In this document: positions 7,529 through 50,350 of the stretch, one piece after another
How positions within the stretch are numbered: position 1 is the first letter of the stretch
Layout: the number at the start of each line of letters is the position of its first letter
Assembly: GCF_014075995.1 (NCBI RefSeq)
Contig: NZ_CP055153.1
Location: 5,828,001 to 5,892,000 of the forward strand
Direction of reading: 5' to 3'
DNA length: 64,000 nt
Origin: Adhaeribacter radiodurans
Lineage (GTDB): Bacteria; Bacteroidota; Bacteroidia; Cytophagales; Hymenobacteraceae
Translations under genes and position numbers: made by a program
Notes under the pieces: model-generated
The model's database searches: none
What the model saw: only the letters and a program-made list of their open reading frames with translations
Told to the model about the DNA's origin: nothing

Positions 7529-8572
7529 ATGCAGGTTCTTTATTTAAAAAATTTCGTAAGTATTTGGTTAATAATTATGCTGCTTGCTTCTGCTTGCCAA
7601 CCCAAAACGAAATCTCCTGCAGTAGAAAAAACTAATCCGCATCACCATCTGTCTGCTATGCAAAGCACCCTTATCCGCCAGCAATTATTACTTAATTTAC
7701 CTTCAGCATCGGGCTTAGAAGTAATTGGGGATAAATTATTTATAATTGGCGATGATAGTCCGCTGCTCTACCAATTACAAGTTAATACCTGGGACTTAAC
7801 TACCACTTATTCTTTACTGAAAACCGAAGACTTTATTACCGGCCGTATTCCCAAATCGCTTAAACCCGATTTAGAATGCTTAACCAGTTTTACTTTTAAT
7901 AATACCACCTATTTACTTGCTTTTGGTTCTGGTTCTACTTCTAAGCGTGATATGGCTTATCTGGTTCCACTCGCCGATGCCTCAGAAACTCCACCAGTGG
8001 TTCAGGAAATTTCATTACGGAACCTCTACCAGGTTTTGCAAGCAGATACTACCATTACCACAGGTGGCAGTTTAAACCTGGAAGCTGCTGCCACTTCTTC
8101 GGAGCACTTGTATTTACTGCAACGGTCCATAAATAACGGGCCAGATGTTTTGCTTACTTTTTCGTTACCAGCCTTTATAACGTACTTGCTGCAGCCTACC
8201 GGCAACTTACCCAATTATACGGTAGTTCCGCTGCAATTACCCCAAATAAATGGGTACAAAGCAGGGTTTTCGGGTGCCAGCTTTTTCGATGACAAATTAT
8301 TTATTACTGCTTCCGTAGAAAACACGAATGATGCTTACCTAGATGGCGAAGTTTTGGGCAGTTTTGCCGGATATATTCCGATGAATCAAGCATCCGACCC
8401 AACCCTTTACACCGCTCGCCTGACAGATACAACCGGTCAGTTTTACCTGGGTAAAGTAGAATCTGTTCGTATTTTGCAGAAAATAGAAAATAATCAGTAC
8501 CGGGCTTTGGCCGTTACGGATAATGACGATGGGCAATCGGAACTACTGGAATTAGTGCTTACCTTACCCTAG
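7529..8572 (+). CDS. Secreted lipoprotein, beta-propeller-like (possibly DUF6929)
   Basis: The 347-residue protein begins with a lipoprotein signal (LLASACQ, lipid Cys near residue 23). The mature part shows short beta-strand repeats typical of a propeller: SGLEVIGDKLFIIGDDSPLLYQL, then YLLAFGSGS, then AGFSGASFFDDKLFITASVE. The pattern 'SASG-E-...-GDD' resembles the Bacteroidota DUF6929 family, of unknown role. It is probably anchored in an outer envelope membrane. The substrate is unknown. Confidence 0.6.
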   Translation: MQVLYLKNFVSIWLIIMLLASACQPKTKSPAVEKTNPHHHLSAMQSTLIRQQLLLNLPSASGLEVIGDKLFIIGDDSPLLYQLQVNTWDLTTTYSLLKTEDFITGRIPKSLKPDLECLTSFTFNNTTYLLAFGSGSTSKRDMAYLVPLADASETPPVVQEISLRNLYQVLQADTTITTGGSLNLEAAATSSEHLYLLQRSINNGPDVLLTFSLPAFITYLLQPTGNLPNYTVVPLQLPQINGYKAGFSGASFFDDKLFITASVENTNDAYLDGEVLGSFAGYIPMNQASDPTLYTARLTDTTGQFYLGKVESVRILQKIENNQYRALAVTDNDDGQSELLELVLTLP

Positions 8573-8702
8573 AGGGCGGTTTTGTTGCTATTCTGCTATT
8601 TCATCCCAAATAGAAATTATTCTGAAAATAAAAAAGCCAACCTACAAAACTCAACTCTTTATTTCGGTTCTCGTTTTCAAAATTAAACCTATTCTTACTA
8701 CC

Positions 8703-9152
8703 ATGGAAACCGCCGATCAAAAAGTAGTGGATATACTCCAAGAATTAACGCAGTTTATAAACGATGGCCACAAAGGGTACGAGCATGCCGCCAAAGAAAC
8801 GACTAATCCGCAACTCCGGCAGCTTTACCAAACTTTAGCGGGACAGCGGGCGGAGTTTGCGCAGGAGTTAAATGAAATAATTAAAAACCACGGAGGTACG
8901 GCCGAAACCAGTACAACCACCAAAGGCAAAATTTTTAGACAATGGATAGATGCCAAAGCGGCACTTACTAACCGCGACGATAACAGCATACTAGATTCTA
9001 ACCTTTTCGGCGAAGAGTGGGCCCAAAAAGCCTATAACAACGCCTTACAACAAACCAATTTACCGCAACCGATTCACCAAATGGTAGAACGGCAAAAAAA
9101 AGCTTTAGAGCAAACCTACCAAACCTTGCAAAAACTAAGAGACGCTGATTAG
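8703..9152 (+). CDS. PA2169-family (DUF2383) four-helix-bundle protein
   Basis: The 149-residue protein is almost wholly helical, with a ferritin-like, metal-ligand-poor bundle. It carries the family pattern of an early DGHKGYEHAAKE helix and a late EEWAQKAYNNALQQ helix. These proteins are common in Bacteroidota and pseudomonads and are often linked with stress or with ferritin and Dps genes, but no reaction is known. Ferritin lies 2 kb away. No signal peptide is seen, so it is cytoplasmic. Confidence 0.82.
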   Translation: METADQKVVDILQELTQFINDGHKGYEHAAKETTNPQLRQLYQTLAGQRAEFAQELNEIIKNHGGTAETSTTTKGKIFRQWIDAKAALTNRDDNSILDSNLFGEEWAQKAYNNALQQTNLPQPIHQMVERQKKALEQTYQTLQKLRDAD

Positions 9153-43479: not shown

Positions 43480-44208
43480 ATGCTGCAAAACTTTATTAAC
43501 CGCGCCATTCCAACTTCGGAATTAATCTGGCAATTGGGGCCATTTATCTTTGGCTACGTATTGGTGGTATCTATATTGGTTTCTTATTTAAAAAAACAGC
43601 ACCAGGTCCGCACGGCTTATACGCGTAAAATATTTCATTTTTTAATTTTTTCTACTGCCAGCATTTTTCAGGTAAAGTACGGCTTACCCGCCGTTATTTT
43701 GTTCGGCAGTATTGTAAGTTTATTTGTGTTGTTCGCGGTTGTTAAAGGCGATAACTTTTCGTTTTACGAGGTAATGGCCCGCGAATCGGATCGACCGCAT
43801 CGCACATTGTTTATTTTAATCCCTTTGGTAACAACGGCATTAGGCGGCGTTTTATCTAACCTCTTTTTTTTAAAATTTGCTTTTATCGGGTACTTAGTGG
43901 GTGGTTGGGGCGATGCCGTAGGAGAACCGGTGGGTTCGCGCTGGGGCAAACACCGCTACCAGGTACCTTCGCTGCTGGGCGTAAAAGCCACCCGCAGTTT
44001 AGAAGGTTCAGCGGCGGTGGCAGTTGTGAGCATTGTAGTATCGTTTATGGGGCTTTACTTTATTGGCTACTCTTTGCCGGATTGTTTAAAAACCGCCGTA
44101 GTTTGTGGATTAGGCGGAGCCGCCATTGAATCTGTAAGCAACCACGGGCTCGATAATTTAACGATGCAATTTACAGCGGCTGGCCTGGCTTATTGGCTGT
44201 TGGTCTGA
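43480..44208 (+). CDS. Polyprenol/phytol/diacylglycerol kinase-like membrane protein
   Basis: The 242-residue protein has about six transmembrane spans and resembles the CTP-dependent lipid kinases SEC59 (dolichol), DGK1 and VTE5/VTE6 (phytol). Recognisable parts are the basic start of a conserved helix (AYTRKIFHFLIF), GYLVGGWGDAVGEPVGSRWGKHRYQVP with the Asp and Gly-rich loop shared with CDP-alcohol enzymes, and KATRSLEGSAA. The acceptor lipid is not known. It lies 1.8 kb before eboA on the same strand. A prenyl-phosphate made by such a kinase could feed the EboC prenyltransferase (inference). Confidence 0.7.
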   Translation: MLQNFINRAIPTSELIWQLGPFIFGYVLVVSILVSYLKKQHQVRTAYTRKIFHFLIFSTASIFQVKYGLPAVILFGSIVSLFVLFAVVKGDNFSFYEVMARESDRPHRTLFILIPLVTTALGGVLSNLFFLKFAFIGYLVGGWGDAVGEPVGSRWGKHRYQVPSLLGVKATRSLEGSAAVAVVSIVVSFMGLYFIGYSLPDCLKTAVVCGLGGAAIESVSNHGLDNLTMQFTAAGLAYWLLV

Positions 44209-44391: not shown

Positions 44392-45204
44392 ATGCGTAAA
44401 TTGCACTCTTTTCTACTACTGGCCTTTGCTGGTATTTTAATTGTTTCTGGTTGTAAATCTGGCTCGGGAGCACAATCCTCCGCTGGTACTTCTGCTGTGC
44501 CCGCGGCTGCCCGCGATACCCGGATTTTTGAAATGCGGGTTTATTATGCGCATCCAGGCAAATTAGCCGATCTGGAAAACCGTTTCCGAACCAATACTAC
44601 CCGGATTTTTGAAAAACACGGCATGACCAACATTGGCTATTGGTTGCCGCTGGAAAATCCGGACAATAAACTGATTTACATTCTGGCTTACCCGAACCGC
44701 GAAGCGCGCGATGCTTCCTGGCAAGCTTTCGGCTCCGATCCAGAGTGGAAAGAAGTAGCTTCTAAATCGGAAGAAAATGGCAAATTGGTAGCCAAAGTAG
44801 ACCAATTGTTCATGGAAACTACCGATTACTCGCCGGCTATTACATTAAAGCAAGCTAGTCCAGAGCGTACTTTTGAGCTGCGTACGTACACCACTACACC
44901 TAATAACTTAGTAAACCTGGATGCCCGTTTCCGGGACCATACCATGGGCTTGTTTAGTAAATACGGTATGGAGAACATTGTTTACTTCCATCCGGTAGCA
45001 GGTCAGCCCGGCGCGGATAATACGTTGGTTTATCTATTAGCGCATAAAAGTCAGGAAGCCGGTTTAGCCTCTTTTGAAGCTTTCCGGAACGACCCAGAAT
45101 GGGTTAAAGTAAAAGCAGCTTCCGAAGTAAAAGGCGGCGGATCTTTAACCACCAAAGTAGAATCGGTTTACATGAAACCTACCGATTACTCTCCTATAAA
45201 GTAA
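44392..45204 (+). CDS. NIPSNAP-domain lipoprotein
   Basis: The 270-residue protein is lipid-anchored (signal LIVSGCKSG, Cys21). It contains two tandem NIPSNAP (dimeric alpha-beta barrel) repeats at about 43-145 and 155-265: RIFEMRVYYAHPGKLADLENRF with DPEWKEV, and RTFELRTYTTTPNNLVNLDARF with DPEWVKV. NIPSNAP domains resemble small mono-oxygenase or sensor folds, but the role is unknown. Its duplication within one chain makes a self-contained barrel dimer. A strong terminator follows. Confidence 0.9.
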   Translation: MRKLHSFLLLAFAGILIVSGCKSGSGAQSSAGTSAVPAAARDTRIFEMRVYYAHPGKLADLENRFRTNTTRIFEKHGMTNIGYWLPLENPDNKLIYILAYPNREARDASWQAFGSDPEWKEVASKSEENGKLVAKVDQLFMETTDYSPAITLKQASPERTFELRTYTTTPNNLVNLDARFRDHTMGLFSKYGMENIVYFHPVAGQPGADNTLVYLLAHKSQEAGLASFEAFRNDPEWVKVKAASEVKGGGSLTTKVESVYMKPTDYSPIK

Positions 45205-45245: not shown

Positions 45246-45289
45246 AAAGCAAAAAGCACTTACTTTCTAAGGTAAGTGCTTTTTGCTTT
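45246..45289. terminator. Strong hairpin terminator after the NIPSNAP gene
   Basis: A perfect 18-bp stem, AAAGCAAAAAGCACTTAC (45246-45263) and its complement (45272-45289), closed by a short loop. It lies 42 bases after the stop codon. The U-tract is within the arm. Confidence 0.85.
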
Positions 45290-45990: not shown

Positions 45991-46878
45991 ATGCCAACAG
46001 CTGACCAAGAATCTGTAAAAAACTTTTTAACGGAACTTCTTACCCGCGCCACCACGCCCCAAGGAATTACCTGGCTCGAAAAACAATTAGCCGAAGCGCA
46101 AACCGAAAGCAAATTTTTCCAGGCTTTTAGTACGGTGCCCCGTTTTGTTGGGAAAAAGAAATTAGAAGTTACTGAAACCGATATAGCAACTGCCGAAGCT
46201 TTACGCCCGGGTTTTAATCCCCAAGGCTGGACGGCCGACCAAGTCGCCCGTACTTTATTAGCTTTATCGTTGCCGCACCAATCGCCGGAAGAATATGTAA
46301 AAACGCTGGATAAATTGTTTGCCACCGCCGATGTAAACGAGCTGGTAGCCTTATACGCTGCTTTGCCCATTTTGCCTTATCCGGAGAAACTTGTACCACG
46401 CATGGCCGAAGGCGTGCGGACTAACATGACTTTGGTTTTTGAAGCCGTAGCGTTGCAGAATCCGTATCCGCACGATTACTTGCCCGAAGAAGCCTGGAAC
46501 CAGTTGGTATTAAAATCTATTTTTACCAGCAGGCCTTTGTACCGGATTTATGGTCTAGAAAATCGCCGGAATTTAAAATTAACGCAAACGCTTTCGGATT
46601 TTGCTCACGAACGCTGGGCCGCCGGTCGTACCCTGAGCCCGGAAGTTTGGCGCAACGTAGGGCCGTTCGTAGACGAAACTATTTGGCCGGATATTCAGAA
46701 ATTATTTACGCAACCCAACGAACTGGAACAACAAGCCGCTGCTTTAGTTTGCGCTGAAAGTAATTTTCCGGAGGCTAAAACCATGCTCGAAACGGTGCCG
46801 GATTTAAAAGCTAAAATTGCCAGCGGCGAACTTACCTGGAATACCATCGGCGAAGCCGTAGCTGCTCAATCTGTATAA
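45991..46878 (+). CDS. eboA: EboA domain protein
   Basis: The 295-residue protein matches EboA, the first gene of the eustigmatophyte-bacteria operon (ebo). Conserved stretches are LPILPYPEKLVPRMAEGVRTNM, FEAVALQNPYPHDYLPEEAWNQLVLK and DFAHERWAAGRTLSPEVWRNVGPF. It is helical, without a membrane span. The gene could open at a leftward ATG (45934), but that would prepend an unnatural 19-residue tail, so I use 45991. Its biochemical role is unknown. In cyanobacteria, ebo genes are needed for export of the scytonemin monomer to the periplasm. It is followed by eboB-eboC-eboD. Confidence 0.88.
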   Translation: MPTADQESVKNFLTELLTRATTPQGITWLEKQLAEAQTESKFFQAFSTVPRFVGKKKLEVTETDIATAEALRPGFNPQGWTADQVARTLLALSLPHQSPEEYVKTLDKLFATADVNELVALYAALPILPYPEKLVPRMAEGVRTNMTLVFEAVALQNPYPHDYLPEEAWNQLVLKSIFTSRPLYRIYGLENRRNLKLTQTLSDFAHERWAAGRTLSPEVWRNVGPFVDETIWPDIQKLFTQPNELEQQAAALVCAESNFPEAKTMLETVPDLKAKIASGELTWNTIGEAVAAQSV

Positions 46879-46949
46879 TTAAACTTCAGGCAAGTATTTT
46901 TTAAATTTTCCTGATTCTTATCTATTTATCATCTTATAATATAAATAAT

Positions 46950-47885
46950 ATGAACATTACTAGTCCTTTCCCGCTAATAGACCCCCACATCCACATGACC
47001 TCGCGCACCACCGACGATTATGAGGCTATGCGCCGAGCCGGCATTGTGGCGATTATTGAACCAGCTTTCTGGATGGGGCAACCCCGCACCGAAGCCGGCA
47101 CCTTTAAAGATTATTATAGCCATTTAATTGGTTTCGAGCGTTTCCGTTCGAGCCAATTTGGCATTAAACATTACTGCACCATTGGTTTAAATTCGAAAGA
47201 AGCCAATAACGAAGCGCTAGCCGAACAAGTAATGGAATTGTTGCCCTTGTACGTAGCCAAAGAAGGCGTAGTGGGCGTGGGTGAAATTGGGTACGACGAC
47301 CAAACTGCCGCTGAAGATAAATACTACCGCTTGCAGCTCGAAATCGCTAAAGATGTAAACCTGCCGGTACAAATCCATACGCCGCATCGCGACAAGAAAA
47401 AAGGCACCCTGCGCAGCATGGAAGTAGCTCTGGAGCACGGCATTGATCCGGGTATGGTAATCGTGGACCACAACAACGAAGAAACCGTGAAAGACGTCTT
47501 GGATCGGGGTTTTTGGGCCGCATTTACTATTTACCCGCACACCAAAATGGGCAACGAACGCATGGTAGAAATTGTAAAGCAATACGGCCCCGAAAGAATC
47601 ATGATTAACTCAGCGGCCGATTGGGGCATCAGCGATCCTTTAGCAGTACCTAAAACAGTAGCCTTAATGCTGGAGCGCGGGATACCAGAAGAACAGGTGC
47701 GTTTGGTAAGTTACGGCAATGCCTTGGCTGCTTTTGGCCAAAGCGGACAAATGCCGGAAAGCGATTGGCTCGAAGCGCAACCAGTTGACCAAAGTCAGAA
47801 GTTTTCCGGAAGTTCGATTTTACGCGGGGGCCAAACGCCTCGTATTGATGAGCCGAATACGCCTACTTCTAACATCATCCGCTAA
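46950..47885 (+). CDS. eboB: EboB, TatD-family metal-dependent hydrolase
   Basis: The 311-residue protein has a TIM-barrel amidohydrolase pattern: IDPHIHMTS (metal His-x-His), EGVVGVGEIGYDD (bridging Glu), VQIHTPHR, MVIVDHNNEE and MINSAADWGISDP (late Asp). All metal-binding residues appear present, so it should be catalytically competent. The substrate is unknown. The C-terminal tail after about residue 265 is Ser/Thr/Pro-rich and probably unstructured. It follows eboA by 71 bases; a perfect 28-bp inverted repeat separates it from eboC. Confidence 0.9.
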   Translation: MNITSPFPLIDPHIHMTSRTTDDYEAMRRAGIVAIIEPAFWMGQPRTEAGTFKDYYSHLIGFERFRSSQFGIKHYCTIGLNSKEANNEALAEQVMELLPLYVAKEGVVGVGEIGYDDQTAAEDKYYRLQLEIAKDVNLPVQIHTPHRDKKKGTLRSMEVALEHGIDPGMVIVDHNNEETVKDVLDRGFWAAFTIYPHTKMGNERMVEIVKQYGPERIMINSAADWGISDPLAVPKTVALMLERGIPEEQVRLVSYGNALAAFGQSGQMPESDWLEAQPVDQSQKFSGSSILRGGQTPRIDEPNTPTSNIIR

Positions 47886-47895
47886 GCCATGTAAT

Positions 47896-47965
47896 TAAGC
47901 TTTATGCTGTAAATATTAAGTTTGCTTATTAAAGGATAAACTTAATATTTACAGCATAAAGCTTA
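47896..47965. repeat. Perfect 28-bp inverted repeat between eboB and eboC
   Basis: Arms 47896-47923 and 47938-47965 are exact complements of 28 bases around a 14-base loop. It begins 11 bases after eboB and is AT-rich, with no T-run at its 3' end, so it is not a standard terminator. Confidence 0.9.
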
Positions 47966-48046
47966 TTCTAATTTTTGCTCTATCCGGAATAGGATAAACG
48001 TAAAACTTATTACTTAGAACTTACTACTTTCATACTCTTTTCGCTT

Positions 48047-48967
48047 ATGAACCGCATTTTTGCGCATTTGGTGCTTATGCGCCCGGCTAATATTGTTACC
48101 GCTGTGGCAGATATCTTGGCGGGTTTTGCCGCAGCAGGCGCCGTACGCTTGATTCAGCAAGAAGTTGGTTCGGCTTACGGTTCTTTGTACCACCCGCTTG
48201 CGTCAGACTTGGGCTGGCTGGTTTTATCTACCATTGGTTTATACGGCGGAGGGATAGTTTTTAACGATGTTTTTGATGCGGATTTAGACAAGATAGAGCG
48301 ACCGGAACGACCTATACCTAGTGGAGCAGCCTCGAAGGCCAGCGCTACCATTCTGGGGGCTTTATTACTTATTCTCGGCATTGGAGCGGCTTTTATCGTG
48401 TCTACCACCAGCGGTATTATTGCGGCAGTGGTGGCTGGTCTGGCTTTGTTGTACGATGCCTGGGGCAAACACCAGGGTTTTCTCGGGCCGATTAACATGG
48501 GCGCTTGCCGGGGCGGCAATTTACTACTAGGTATGAGCGCTATTACGGCCAGTCTGGAGCATTACTGGTATCTGGCTTTTATTCCGATTGTGTATATTGC
48601 CAATATAACGGTCATCAGCCGGGGTGAAGTGCATGGCGGTAGCCGGCCTATTTTACAGGCCACCGTGGCTTTATACATTTTAGTTTTTTTAAGTATTGGT
48701 GCTTTAACCTTCTTACCGCACTTTTCTCTAATAACGGCCTTGCCTTTTGCCTTGCTTTTTGCTTATTTAATAATGCTGCCCTTATTAAAAGCCGTAAAAA
48801 CCTTGCAACCAAAAGAAATACGATTAGCGGTAAAAGCCGGCGTTTTATCTTTAATTATCCTGGATGCTACTCTGGCAGCGGGCTTTGCAGGATGGTTGTA
48901 CGGACTGGCAGTATTATTGCTTTTTCCGGTATCGCGGTTTATGGCTAAACAATTTGCTGTTACTTAA
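48047..48967 (+). CDS. eboC: EboC, UbiA-family prenyltransferase
   Basis: The 306-residue protein has eight to nine transmembrane spans and the UbiA Asp-rich motif NDVFDADLDKIERPERPIPSG, which binds the Mg-prenyl-diphosphate. The second motif region is LLYDAWGKHQGFLGPINMGACRGGN. UbiA proteins join a prenyl chain to an aromatic or sugar-like acceptor in the membrane. Its genomic setting (after eboB, before eboD) identifies the subfamily as EboC. The acceptor is unknown; a cyclitol made by EboD is a possibility (inference). Confidence 0.92.
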   Translation: MNRIFAHLVLMRPANIVTAVADILAGFAAAGAVRLIQQEVGSAYGSLYHPLASDLGWLVLSTIGLYGGGIVFNDVFDADLDKIERPERPIPSGAASKASATILGALLLILGIGAAFIVSTTSGIIAAVVAGLALLYDAWGKHQGFLGPINMGACRGGNLLLGMSAITASLEHYWYLAFIPIVYIANITVISRGEVHGGSRPILQATVALYILVFLSIGALTFLPHFSLITALPFALLFAYLIMLPLLKAVKTLQPKEIRLAVKAGVLSLIILDATLAAGFAGWLYGLAVLLLFPVSRFMAKQFAVT

Positions 48968-49105
48968 CTATAAACCCAGCGGTTGCTAGCAGATTAAATT
49001 TTAATTAAAAAAACGTTTCCTATAAAACCACTTTTTTATTTTTAAATTTGTTATCTGTACAATAACAAGCCGTAAAGCAAGCGGCATTTTTTAGAATTTT
49101 TATTC

Positions 49106-50281
49106 ATGCAGATATACCCCATTCAGCAAACATTTCAGGTAACGTATAATTATACTGTTCACTTTACCGAAAACTTATTTTCACTCCGGAACCTATTGCT
49201 TCGTGATGTAATTGCATCGGGCGGTGGAGAAGGCCGGAAGGTTTTATTTGTCCTGGATCATCACGTAGCTGAAGCGCTTCCCACATTAACACAGGATATA
49301 AAAAATTATACGTCGCAGTACGCCGATGTTTTACAACTCGCTGCCGAGCCTATGGTTATTCCGGGTGGCGAGCAATGTAAAAACGATCCGATTTACACGG
49401 AGCAAGTAATTGATGCCATTAACGAAAAAGGAATCGATCGGCATTCCTACGTATTAGCTATTGGTGGTGGCGCTTTGTTAGATATGGTAGGTTATGCATG
49501 CGGTATTGCGCACCGGGGTATCCGCCACATCCGGATTCCTACTACGGTATTATCACAGAATGATTCGGGGGTAGGTGTAAAAAACAGCATTAACGCTTAC
49601 GGTAAAAAGAACTTCTTGGGCACCTTTACCCCGCCTTTTGCCGTAATCAACGACTTTCATTTTCTGCGTACTTTAACGCATCGGGAATGGCGTGCTGGTA
49701 TTGCCGAAGCCATAAAAGTATCGCTCATAAAAGACGCCGAATTTTTTAAATTTATACAAGAAAATACGCATAAACTGGCTGAACGCGATATGCCAGCTAT
49801 GCAGTACCTGATTCATCGGTGCGCTGAAATGCACGTACAGCACATTGCCAGCGGCGATCCTTTTGAAAAAGGTTCTTCCCGCCCCTTAGATTTTGGTCAC
49901 TGGTCGGCGCATAAAATGGAGCAATTAAGTAATTACCGTATCCGCCACGGCGAAGCTGTTGCTATGGGCATTGCCCTGGACTCAACGTATTCGTATCTCA
50001 AAGGCATGATTACCGAAGACGAATTAAAACAAATTCTGGAAGTAATTACCGGTGTTGGTTTTGAATTATTTGCCCCCGAAATGCTTTCGCACCTCGAAGA
50101 TGATACACATCCTAAAAGTTTACTGCGCGGTTTACAGGAGTTCCGCGAACACTTGGGTGGTCAGTTAACTATTATGCTGCTTACTAAAATTGGCAAAGGG
50201 GTAGAAGTACACGAAATTGATAACGAGTTAATGATTGCCGCCATCGAACAACTCCGGCACCACGCCGAGGCTACTGTTTAG
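49106..50281 (+). CDS. eboD: EboD, 3-dehydroquinate-synthase-like sugar phosphate cyclase
   Basis: The 391-residue protein belongs to the sugar phosphate cyclase superfamily (DHQ synthase, 2-epi-5-epi-valiolone synthase). The NAD-binding loop is AIGGGALLDMVGYACGIAHRG, the metal/substrate region DFHFLRTLTHREWRAGIAEAIKVSLIKDAEFF, and RPLDFGHWSAHKMEQLSNYRIRHGEAVAMGI gives the zinc His ligands. It differs from AroB in key positions (EWRAGIAEAIKVSLI rather than ExxxGxAExxKxxxI with a DHQ-type pattern) and has a longer N-terminus. It probably converts a sugar phosphate such as sedoheptulose 7-phosphate into a cyclitol. A strong terminator follows, so eboE and eboF are not in this transcript. Confidence 0.9.
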   Translation: MQIYPIQQTFQVTYNYTVHFTENLFSLRNLLLRDVIASGGGEGRKVLFVLDHHVAEALPTLTQDIKNYTSQYADVLQLAAEPMVIPGGEQCKNDPIYTEQVIDAINEKGIDRHSYVLAIGGGALLDMVGYACGIAHRGIRHIRIPTTVLSQNDSGVGVKNSINAYGKKNFLGTFTPPFAVINDFHFLRTLTHREWRAGIAEAIKVSLIKDAEFFKFIQENTHKLAERDMPAMQYLIHRCAEMHVQHIASGDPFEKGSSRPLDFGHWSAHKMEQLSNYRIRHGEAVAMGIALDSTYSYLKGMITEDELKQILEVITGVGFELFAPEMLSHLEDDTHPKSLLRGLQEFREHLGGQLTIMLLTKIGKGVEVHEIDNELMIAAIEQLRHHAEATV

Positions 50282-50298: not shown

Positions 50299-50350
50299 AA
50301 AGCTGGTTAAACATTGTTCAACAGATGGAAGTGTTTAACCAGCTTTTTTA
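50299..50350. terminator. Bidirectional terminator after eboD
   Basis: A perfect 15-bp stem, AAAGCTGGTTAAACA (50299-50313) and complement (50332-50346), has a T-run at its right end and A/T at its left. It ends the ebo transcript and the mutarotase gene on the other strand. Confidence 0.88.

Follow-up and report, generated by a model that had tools for sequence, protein, structure and literature searches.

The genes at positions 45991 to 50281 of the window, the 64,000-nucleotide stretch of the Adhaeribacter radiodurans genome that was analysed, are, with a probability of about 0.95, one half (eboABCD) of an ebo pathway that has all six genes but is split in the genus Adhaeribacter. That this complete and split pathway also works jointly is, we infer, very likely.

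The ORF listing contains four plus-strand genes in the order eboA-eboB-eboC-eboD, exactly where the preliminary description had placed them, and both the reading frames and the profile scores bear out the identities and the canonical order proposed there. The eboA product (45991..46878, 295 aa) scores 176.7 bits with NF035938 (cut-off 50) and 286.8 bits, and thus below the cut-off of 320, with the narrower EboA_family model NF035937. The start at 45991 is consistent with three named relatives. The AlphaFold model of EboA is mostly helical and of low confidence (pLDDT 66.4), and helical-repeat proteins make up most of its best structural matches, at E values of at least 0.16; at this low confidence the predicted fold can be called mostly helical, and nothing beyond that. 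The second gene, eboB (46950..47885, 311 aa), encodes a TatD-like metal-dependent hydrolase (Pfam TatD_DNase PF01026, 60.9 bits, cut-off 27), and its nearest solved sequence is the uncharacterised 3guw. The motifs HxH, GEIGYDD, IHTPHR, VDHNNE and NSxxDWG are kept in all 14 rows of an alignment in which two rows represent one gene of genome G014 and genome G002 has no row. Ebo-specific NCBIfam models match neither EboB nor EboD; gene order and conserved motifs agree in supporting EboB as a probable member of the ebo family.

The product of eboC (48047..48967, 306 aa) is a UbiA-type membrane prenyltransferase, which clearly exceeds the cut-off of NF035940 (396.6 versus 250 bits), carries the aspartate-rich motif NDVxDA[DE]LD in 14 of 14 aligned rows, and has a digeranylgeranylglyceryl phosphate synthase as its best match among solved sequences. 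The last gene, eboD (49106..50281, 391 aa), encodes a sugar phosphate cyclase with a score of 595.5 bits for the EboD-type model NF004852 (cut-off 333). EboD matches both AroB and the ValA-type cyclase 4p53 in sequence, and it retains the residues that we take to be the three metal ligands. However, it is distinct from AroB, because His replaces an AroB lysine and Asp replaces an AroB asparagine in 14/14 EboD rows, and a separate AroB is encoded in the same genome. The passages of PMC4426668 consulted contain no tabulated active-site residues of the cyclases.

The genes 3' of eboD are located on the minus strand and have sugar-related Pfam and NCBIfam profiles (a PF05336 mutarotase-type protein, a xylose-isomerase-like TIM barrel protein, an alcohol dehydrogenase-type and an aldo-keto reductase-type protein), in agreement with the unrelated sugar operon that had been reported at this place. 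The terminator that had been assigned to the end of eboD can be retained as a terminator-like hairpin (50299..50346, -23.9 kcal/mol for the stretch), with perfect 15-bp arms at 50299-50313 and 50332-50346 that are followed by T residues. It is absent from the list of a generic terminator scan, probably because its loop exceeds the limit of 8 of that scan.

The search of the remaining genome for eboE and eboF, which the preliminary description had recommended, revealed both genes in tandem on the minus strand of the same contig (C2:6608712-6611491). The gap between eboD and eboE spans 732,044 bases, and the two halves lie on opposite strands. EboE, a TIM barrel protein, scores 513.9 bits with NF035939 (cut-off 250). 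EboF, a phosphodiesterase-like protein, is encoded by a 463-aa ORF directly 3' of eboE; it matches no Ebo-specific NCBIfam model and is 62-75% identical to full-length eboE-adjacent matches from other genera. Therefore, the earlier statement that eboE and eboF are not here is correct for the four-gene locus, but not for the genome, and the claim that the cluster is reduced to eboA-B-C-D is wrong genome-wide. One contiguous six-gene operon, which is the ancestral form in Bacteroidetes, is absent here. In the sampled genomes of the family, eboE is detached from eboD in 8/8 Adhaeribacter genomes, as in the relative G029 with a gap of 345 kb and both halves on the plus strand, whereas it is adjacent to eboD in 40/40 other carriers. 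This distribution points to a single rearrangement at the level of the genus rather than to a loss. A detached eboE-eboF pair has been described for A. aquaticus (Yurchenko et al., 2016, PMC5133447), which has the same six genes eboA-F with eboABCD kept together. The genome analyzed here is a further one of the genus, in which the halves lie 732 kb apart and on opposite strands. As the detached pair is among the published variants, the membership in the ebo cluster family stands.

The occurrence of the Ebo proteins was analyzed in a sample of 150 genomes of the family and a sample of 345 genomes of the phylum, with the carriers G000 and G011 common to both. The same 48 family genomes carry EboA, EboC, EboD and EboE above cut-off, and for EboD it is NF004852 that exceeds its cut-off in exactly these EboA-bearing genomes. 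An eboF match was found in all 48 carriers, although the match in G034 covers just 38 residues at the end of a contig; beyond these carriers, eboF occurs alone in G104. In the phylum sample, EboA and EboE are held by the same 28 genomes. Co-occurrence among related genomes does not represent independent evidence. EboA and EboE are encoded on opposite strands in seven sampled genomes and are 11-15 kb apart in two, and therefore one operon is not a rule. The identical distribution of EboA and EboE agrees with the idea of the Ebo proteins as one working unit.

All six ebo genes look constrained, as judged from sequence comparisons. Versus the relatives G009 and G014, the approximate dN/dS values range from 0.015 to 0.071 across the six genes, and they are rough because dS is high (0.47-1.90). 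No dN/dS could be obtained for the ebo genes from a third relative, G029, because of saturation, and in the relative G003 the frames of eboA and eboD are short or match late. A decaying remnant is unsupported, because the reading frames used are open and dN/dS is low versus G009 and G014. An intact second operon with another copy of eboA-D, which had been considered in the preliminary description, was looked for as well: EboA, EboC and EboD have one match each above cut-off, so that the genome showed no further copy of their genes, and every ebo gene counted (A, C, D, E and F) is present in a single copy. Plasmid-borne ebo genes were also rejected, since a plasmid search at E 1e-30 gave a single match for EboC, in Aureibacter tunicatorum (43.5%), and none for the kinase-like protein described below.

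The gap between eboB and eboC contains a 28-bp perfect inverted repeat (47896..47965). A dispersed repeat was rejected, because the only genome matches with up to three mismatches are these two arms. A hairpin is present in this gap in four of the seven Adhaeribacter genomes examined, and the gap is only 9-20 bp long in the other three. Scans for sigma-70-type promoters and terminators returned no more matches than shuffled sequences. The Bacteroidetes promoter motif TAnnTTTG occurs no farther than 250 bp from each of eboA, eboC and eboD, without the upstream element, and 5' of eboC it falls inside the inverted repeat; it is weak evidence for putative promoters.

Upstream of eboA, two plus-strand genes are found. 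The first (43480..44208, 242 aa) is a candidate prenol kinase gene, which encodes a membrane protein and is a conserved neighbor of eboABCD in Adhaeribacter. The second (44392..45204) has two NIPSNAP stretches (PF07978), and its product has an N-terminus that we take to resemble a lipoprotein signal. The kinase-like gene is present in 8/8 Adhaeribacter genomes, in each of them at most 2.6 kb from the eboA match, and in none of the 142 other family genomes sampled. The order kinase-like gene, NIPSNAP gene, eboA is kept in 7/7 genus genomes examined (G034, with too short a stretch, is omitted from this count), within three differing upstream contexts. The accessible text of PMC5133447 does not mention these neighbors.

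For the chemistry, a tentative scheme can be proposed. EboD would form a cyclitol by ring closure of a sugar phosphate, for which sedoheptulose 7-phosphate is a candidate, and EboC would add a prenyl chain in the membrane. Hydrolysis, isomerisation and phosphate steps would fall to EboB, EboE and EboF, and the complex would be held in place by EboA. The resulting prenylated lipid would aid the passage of a small metabolite to the periplasm. As a whole, this scheme has somewhat less than an even chance of being correct. The prenylated cyclitol suggested in the preliminary description is plausible; neither this idea nor the split layout is new, as both are contained in Yurchenko et al. (2016, PMC5133447), who proposed an isoprenoid-cyclitol ebo product. 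No ebo product is known from the accessible parts of the ebo literature. In Nostoc punctiforme, the monomer of scytonemin stays cytoplasmic in every ebo deletion studied, eboD not being among them (Klicki et al., 2018, PMC6282210). The families EboA, B, C, E and F, including a UbiA-type EboC, are common to both systems; in Nostoc, the cluster is tied to scytonemin genes (PMC6282210).

Three other explanations have to be weighed. A naturally reduced four-gene pathway, in which EboE and EboF would not be needed for a separate product, is suggested by the layout of the locus with its hairpin and the opposite-strand operon after eboD. However, it is contradicted by eboE and eboF in the same genome, and no EboA carrier without EboE exists among the 48 carriers of the family sample (150 genomes) and the 28 of the phylum sample (345 genomes), so that this explanation is extremely improbable. 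Alternatively, EboC might mainly farnesylate an aromatic metabolite of the quinoline or indole type, which the cluster would export or decorate, with the cyclitol of EboD as a small tag or an aromatic precursor. Ubi-297 of marine Flavobacteria is the EboC of their ebo clusters, and three EboC homologs were found to farnesylate 8-hydroxyquinoline-2-carboxylic acid (8-HQA) in vitro (Amiri Moghaddam et al., 2022, PMC9235831); the prenyl transfer itself is in line with the scheme above, but the EboC acceptors demonstrated so far are aromatic compounds, not cyclitols (PMC9235831), which counts against that scheme. In addition, the scytonemin monomer and tryptophan-derived indoles have been linked to ebo/EDB clusters (PMC6282210, PMC9655573). 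Ubi-297 shares the aspartate-rich motif with the EboC described here, but its activity has been demonstrated, whereas EboC of Adhaeribacter is known by its sequence. However, the acceptor used in vitro is not established as the natural one in the accessible part of PMC9235831, and an R145A change occurred without loss of activity (PMC9235831). Taken together, this alternative is possible, but rather doubtful.

It is unlikely, but worth considering, that the ebo locus is enlarged in Adhaeribacter by the kinase-like and NIPSNAP genes, and that the kinase phosphorylates a free prenol, e.g., farnesol, and thereby supplies or recycles the donor of EboC. In addition to the conserved neighborhood, the protein has the RKxxH clamp of prenol/polyprenol kinases (VTE5, FOLK, SEC59, PolK), and R49, K50 and H53 are invariant in 23/23 rows of an alignment of the window protein with those of 22 of 23 loci (L076 was left out). 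Its model (pLDDT 94.7) has eight long helices, and an Arg-Lys-x-x-His clamp together with eight helices has been described for Plasmodium PolK (PMC10849223). Distant relatives were found to adjoin a UbiA-type gene at 27 of the 29 loci, and in one case this neighbor was identified as a bacteriochlorophyll c synthase. Loci were retrieved for the top 30 of 112 genomes with a match, among the matches listed. The kinase-like protein could, as far as its sequence and gene neighborhood go, feed the prenyltransferase EboC, but here the gene pair is parted from eboA by a hairpin (45246..45289, 21-nt arms, 95% complementary, -32.8 kcal/mol), which is perhaps a terminator and is absent from the list of the generic scan. 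Moreover, no ebo match (E 1e-4) was found within 6-21 kb at the 20 non-Adhaeribacter loci listed, which encode 45-61% identical proteins, and several of them encode the domain as a fusion with a phosphatase-like protein, next to glycosyltransferase and HEAT genes, a context that may suggest another role for the kinase-like domain. The similarity searches also argue against this idea: the best Pfam match has an E value of 0.088 and belongs to an unrelated family, Foldseek gave no match with E < 0.001, and no relative was found among solved-structure sequences (best E 0.43). As for the CTP-transferase-type fold with eight transmembrane helices of such kinases, CDP-DAG synthase holds ranks 1-4 in Foldseek, but at E 0.029-0.088 and a TM of about 0.3. 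That the prenol kinase and the NIPSNAP lipoprotein were recruited beside eboABCD by horizontal transfer appears to be a slim prospect.

With the complete, split pathway as the preferred explanation, a false lead, the four-gene ebo pathway, has been removed. EboA and EboE are found in exactly the same genomes in both samples, even when their genes are far apart, and the two separately movable halves of Adhaeribacter represent a simple genetic test of the Ebo unit. The kinase-NIPSNAP neighbors are a new lead, which offers a testable idea about the lipid of EboC, a gap so far. If the recruitment were true, the donor of EboC would be made or recycled from free prenol, and the lipid half of the ebo product, which is still missing, would be revealed.

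The ebo pathway of Adhaeribacter radiodurans is complete, and it is split into two halves. One half, in the window, is a plus-strand run of four genes: eboA (45991-46878), followed by eboB (46950-47885), eboC (48047-48967), and eboD (49106-50281). Judged by profile searches, support is strong for EboA (NF035938, 176.7 bits versus a cut-off of 50), EboC (NF035940, 396.6 bits versus 250), and the EboD-type cyclase (NF004852, 595.5 bits versus 333), and general for EboB, which has matches to TatD-type and related hydrolase models only. With the narrower EboA_family model the score of EboA was 286.8, below the cut-off of 320. The cluster is real, and the preliminary description had named its genes correctly. 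It had also described a terminator after eboD and unrelated sugar genes on the minus strand beyond it, and both were seen: an inverted repeat with perfect 15-bp arms and T residues closes the group (50299-50346), and the opposite-strand genes 3' of it have the look of sugar metabolism in profile searches, encoding L-rhamnose mutarotase-type, xylose-isomerase-like TIM barrel, alcohol dehydrogenase-type, and aldo-keto reductase-type proteins. A perfect inverted repeat with 28-bp arms lies between eboB and eboC (47896-47965). The same gap contains a related hairpin in the sampled genome G009 and hairpins of unrelated sequence in G019 and G024, and is 9-20 bp long in three further genomes.

The other half was found when the organism's own genome (6.94 Mb, two contigs) was searched. 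The claim that the cluster is reduced to eboA-B-C-D is wrong for the genome, because the same contig carries a single EboE match (513.9 bits versus a cut-off of 250; C2:6610319-6611491, minus strand) and, directly 3' of it, eboF as a reading frame of 463 amino acids. The distance from eboD to eboE along the contig is 732,044 bases. EboA had one match in the genome, and EboC and EboD had one each over the cut-off; therefore, the search gave no second copy of eboA, eboC, or eboD, copies having been counted for these three, eboE, and eboF. The window cluster makes up one half of a known system that is complete here, in a layout already known for Adhaeribacter: a detached eboE-eboF pair has been reported for A. 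aquaticus (Yurchenko et al., 2016; PMC5133447). Among the papers listed in literature searches, no later study of ebo in Adhaeribacter was found.

Within the family sample, the same 48 of 150 genomes were over the cut-off for EboA, EboC, EboD, and EboE, and all 48 also had an eboF match, although in G034 this covers no more than 38 residues at the edge of a contig. One further family genome, G104, has an orphan eboF (64% identical, positions 7608-9008 of locus L083), but EboA and EboE gave no match there, and neither EboC nor EboD passed the cut-off. eboE is detached from eboD in all eight Adhaeribacter genomes, in contrast to all 40 carriers of other genera, in which it lies on the same strand at most 260 bases from eboD. 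The two halves are 345 kb to 4.3 Mb apart in four of the eight, 10 kb apart on opposite strands in G014, and on different contigs in three. In the sampled phylum, presumably Bacteroidota, the same 28 of 345 genomes carry EboA and EboE. Their separation exceeds 20 kb in the window's genome alone, is 11-15 kb in two carriers, and is small with opposite strands in seven. In G326 the eboE match (C1:3566071-3567236) is in two overlapping pieces, which may reflect a disrupted gene or an error in the sequence.

All six genes look to be under constraint. Approximate dN/dS values versus G009 and G014, respectively, were 0.064 and 0.071 for eboA, 0.015 and 0.028 for eboB, 0.038 and 0.061 for eboC, 0.019 and 0.037 for eboD, 0.058 and 0.055 for eboE, and 0.056 and 0.053 for eboF; these figures are rough because dS was high (0.47-1.90) and the comparison with G029 was saturated, yielding no ebo value. 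However, the eboA and eboD frames of G003 are short or match the profile late.

EboD retains the three residues that we take to bind the metal in sugar phosphate cyclases. In an alignment with three AroB sequences of the family, His replaces the AroB Lys and Asp replaces the AroB Asn in 14 of 14 EboD rows, whereas the AroB encoded in the same genome carries Lys and Asn as usual; therefore, EboD is most likely not the shikimate enzyme. Alignments also showed that the aspartate-rich motif of EboC is kept (14/14 rows), as are metal-type motifs of EboB. The closest solved relative of EboC by sequence is digeranylgeranylglyceryl phosphate synthase. The predicted model of EboA is of low quality and shows a mostly helical protein, nothing further. 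In Nostoc, ebo deletions are described as stopping a scytonemin precursor from reaching the periplasm (PMC6282210), EboC homologues as farnesylating 8-hydroxyquinoline-2-carboxylic acid in vitro (PMC9235831), and an ebo-containing cluster of Pseudomonas as repelling nematodes (PMC6282210 and a review). Joining two published proposals, we infer that the pathway would make a prenylated cyclitol lipid that aids metabolite traffic.

Two further genes lie upstream of eboA. The first (43480-44208) encodes a 242-aa kinase-like membrane protein and the second (44392-45204) a NIPSNAP protein whose start resembles that of a lipoprotein; in the window's genome a hairpin separates the second from eboA. 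The block of both genes and eboABCD is kept in all seven Adhaeribacter loci examined, around which the upstream genes vary in three ways and the downstream genes vary too where visible. The kinase-like gene is present in 8/8 Adhaeribacter genomes, each time at most 2.6 kb from the eboA match; a search of the remaining 142 family genomes did not find it. Residues R49, K50, and H53 are among those invariant in 23 of 23 aligned rows, and their spacing is that of the Arg-Lys-His clamp described for a Plasmodium prenol kinase, the model of which has eight transmembrane helices (PMC10849223). The confident model of the kinase-like protein (pLDDT 94.7) likewise has eight long helices. The first four Foldseek ranks are CDP-DAG synthase, at E values of at least 0.029 and TM scores of about 0.3, and the best matches were only E 0.088 in Pfam and E 0.43 among solved sequences.

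Among the best 30 of 112 matching genomes, distant relatives of the kinase-like gene elsewhere in the phylum have a UbiA-type neighbour in 27 of 29 non-own loci, which are close kin of one another and not independent cases; the remaining two loci are truncated. The sole UbiA-type gene identified in the set L026-L053, probably from green sulfur bacteria, is the bacteriochlorophyll c synthase of L026. No ebo genes were found at E 1e-4 near relatives outside Adhaeribacter in 20 loci of 6-21 kb each, several of which have the domain fused to a phosphatase-like protein, beside glycosyltransferase and HEAT-repeat genes. In L058 (8474-10723) the domain forms the C-terminus of a longer protein that carries the phosphatase-like motif HCxxGxxR and is encoded beside HEAT and family 2 glycosyltransferase genes. 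The hairpin before eboA, these ebo-free loci outside the genus, and the poor Pfam and solved-sequence matches count against a link to ebo. A conserved neighbourhood in one genus is weak evidence, and it is rather unlikely that the kinase-like and NIPSNAP genes belong with the ebo pathway.

The part of the finding most worth following is the kinase-like neighbour, as a lead on the lipid donor.
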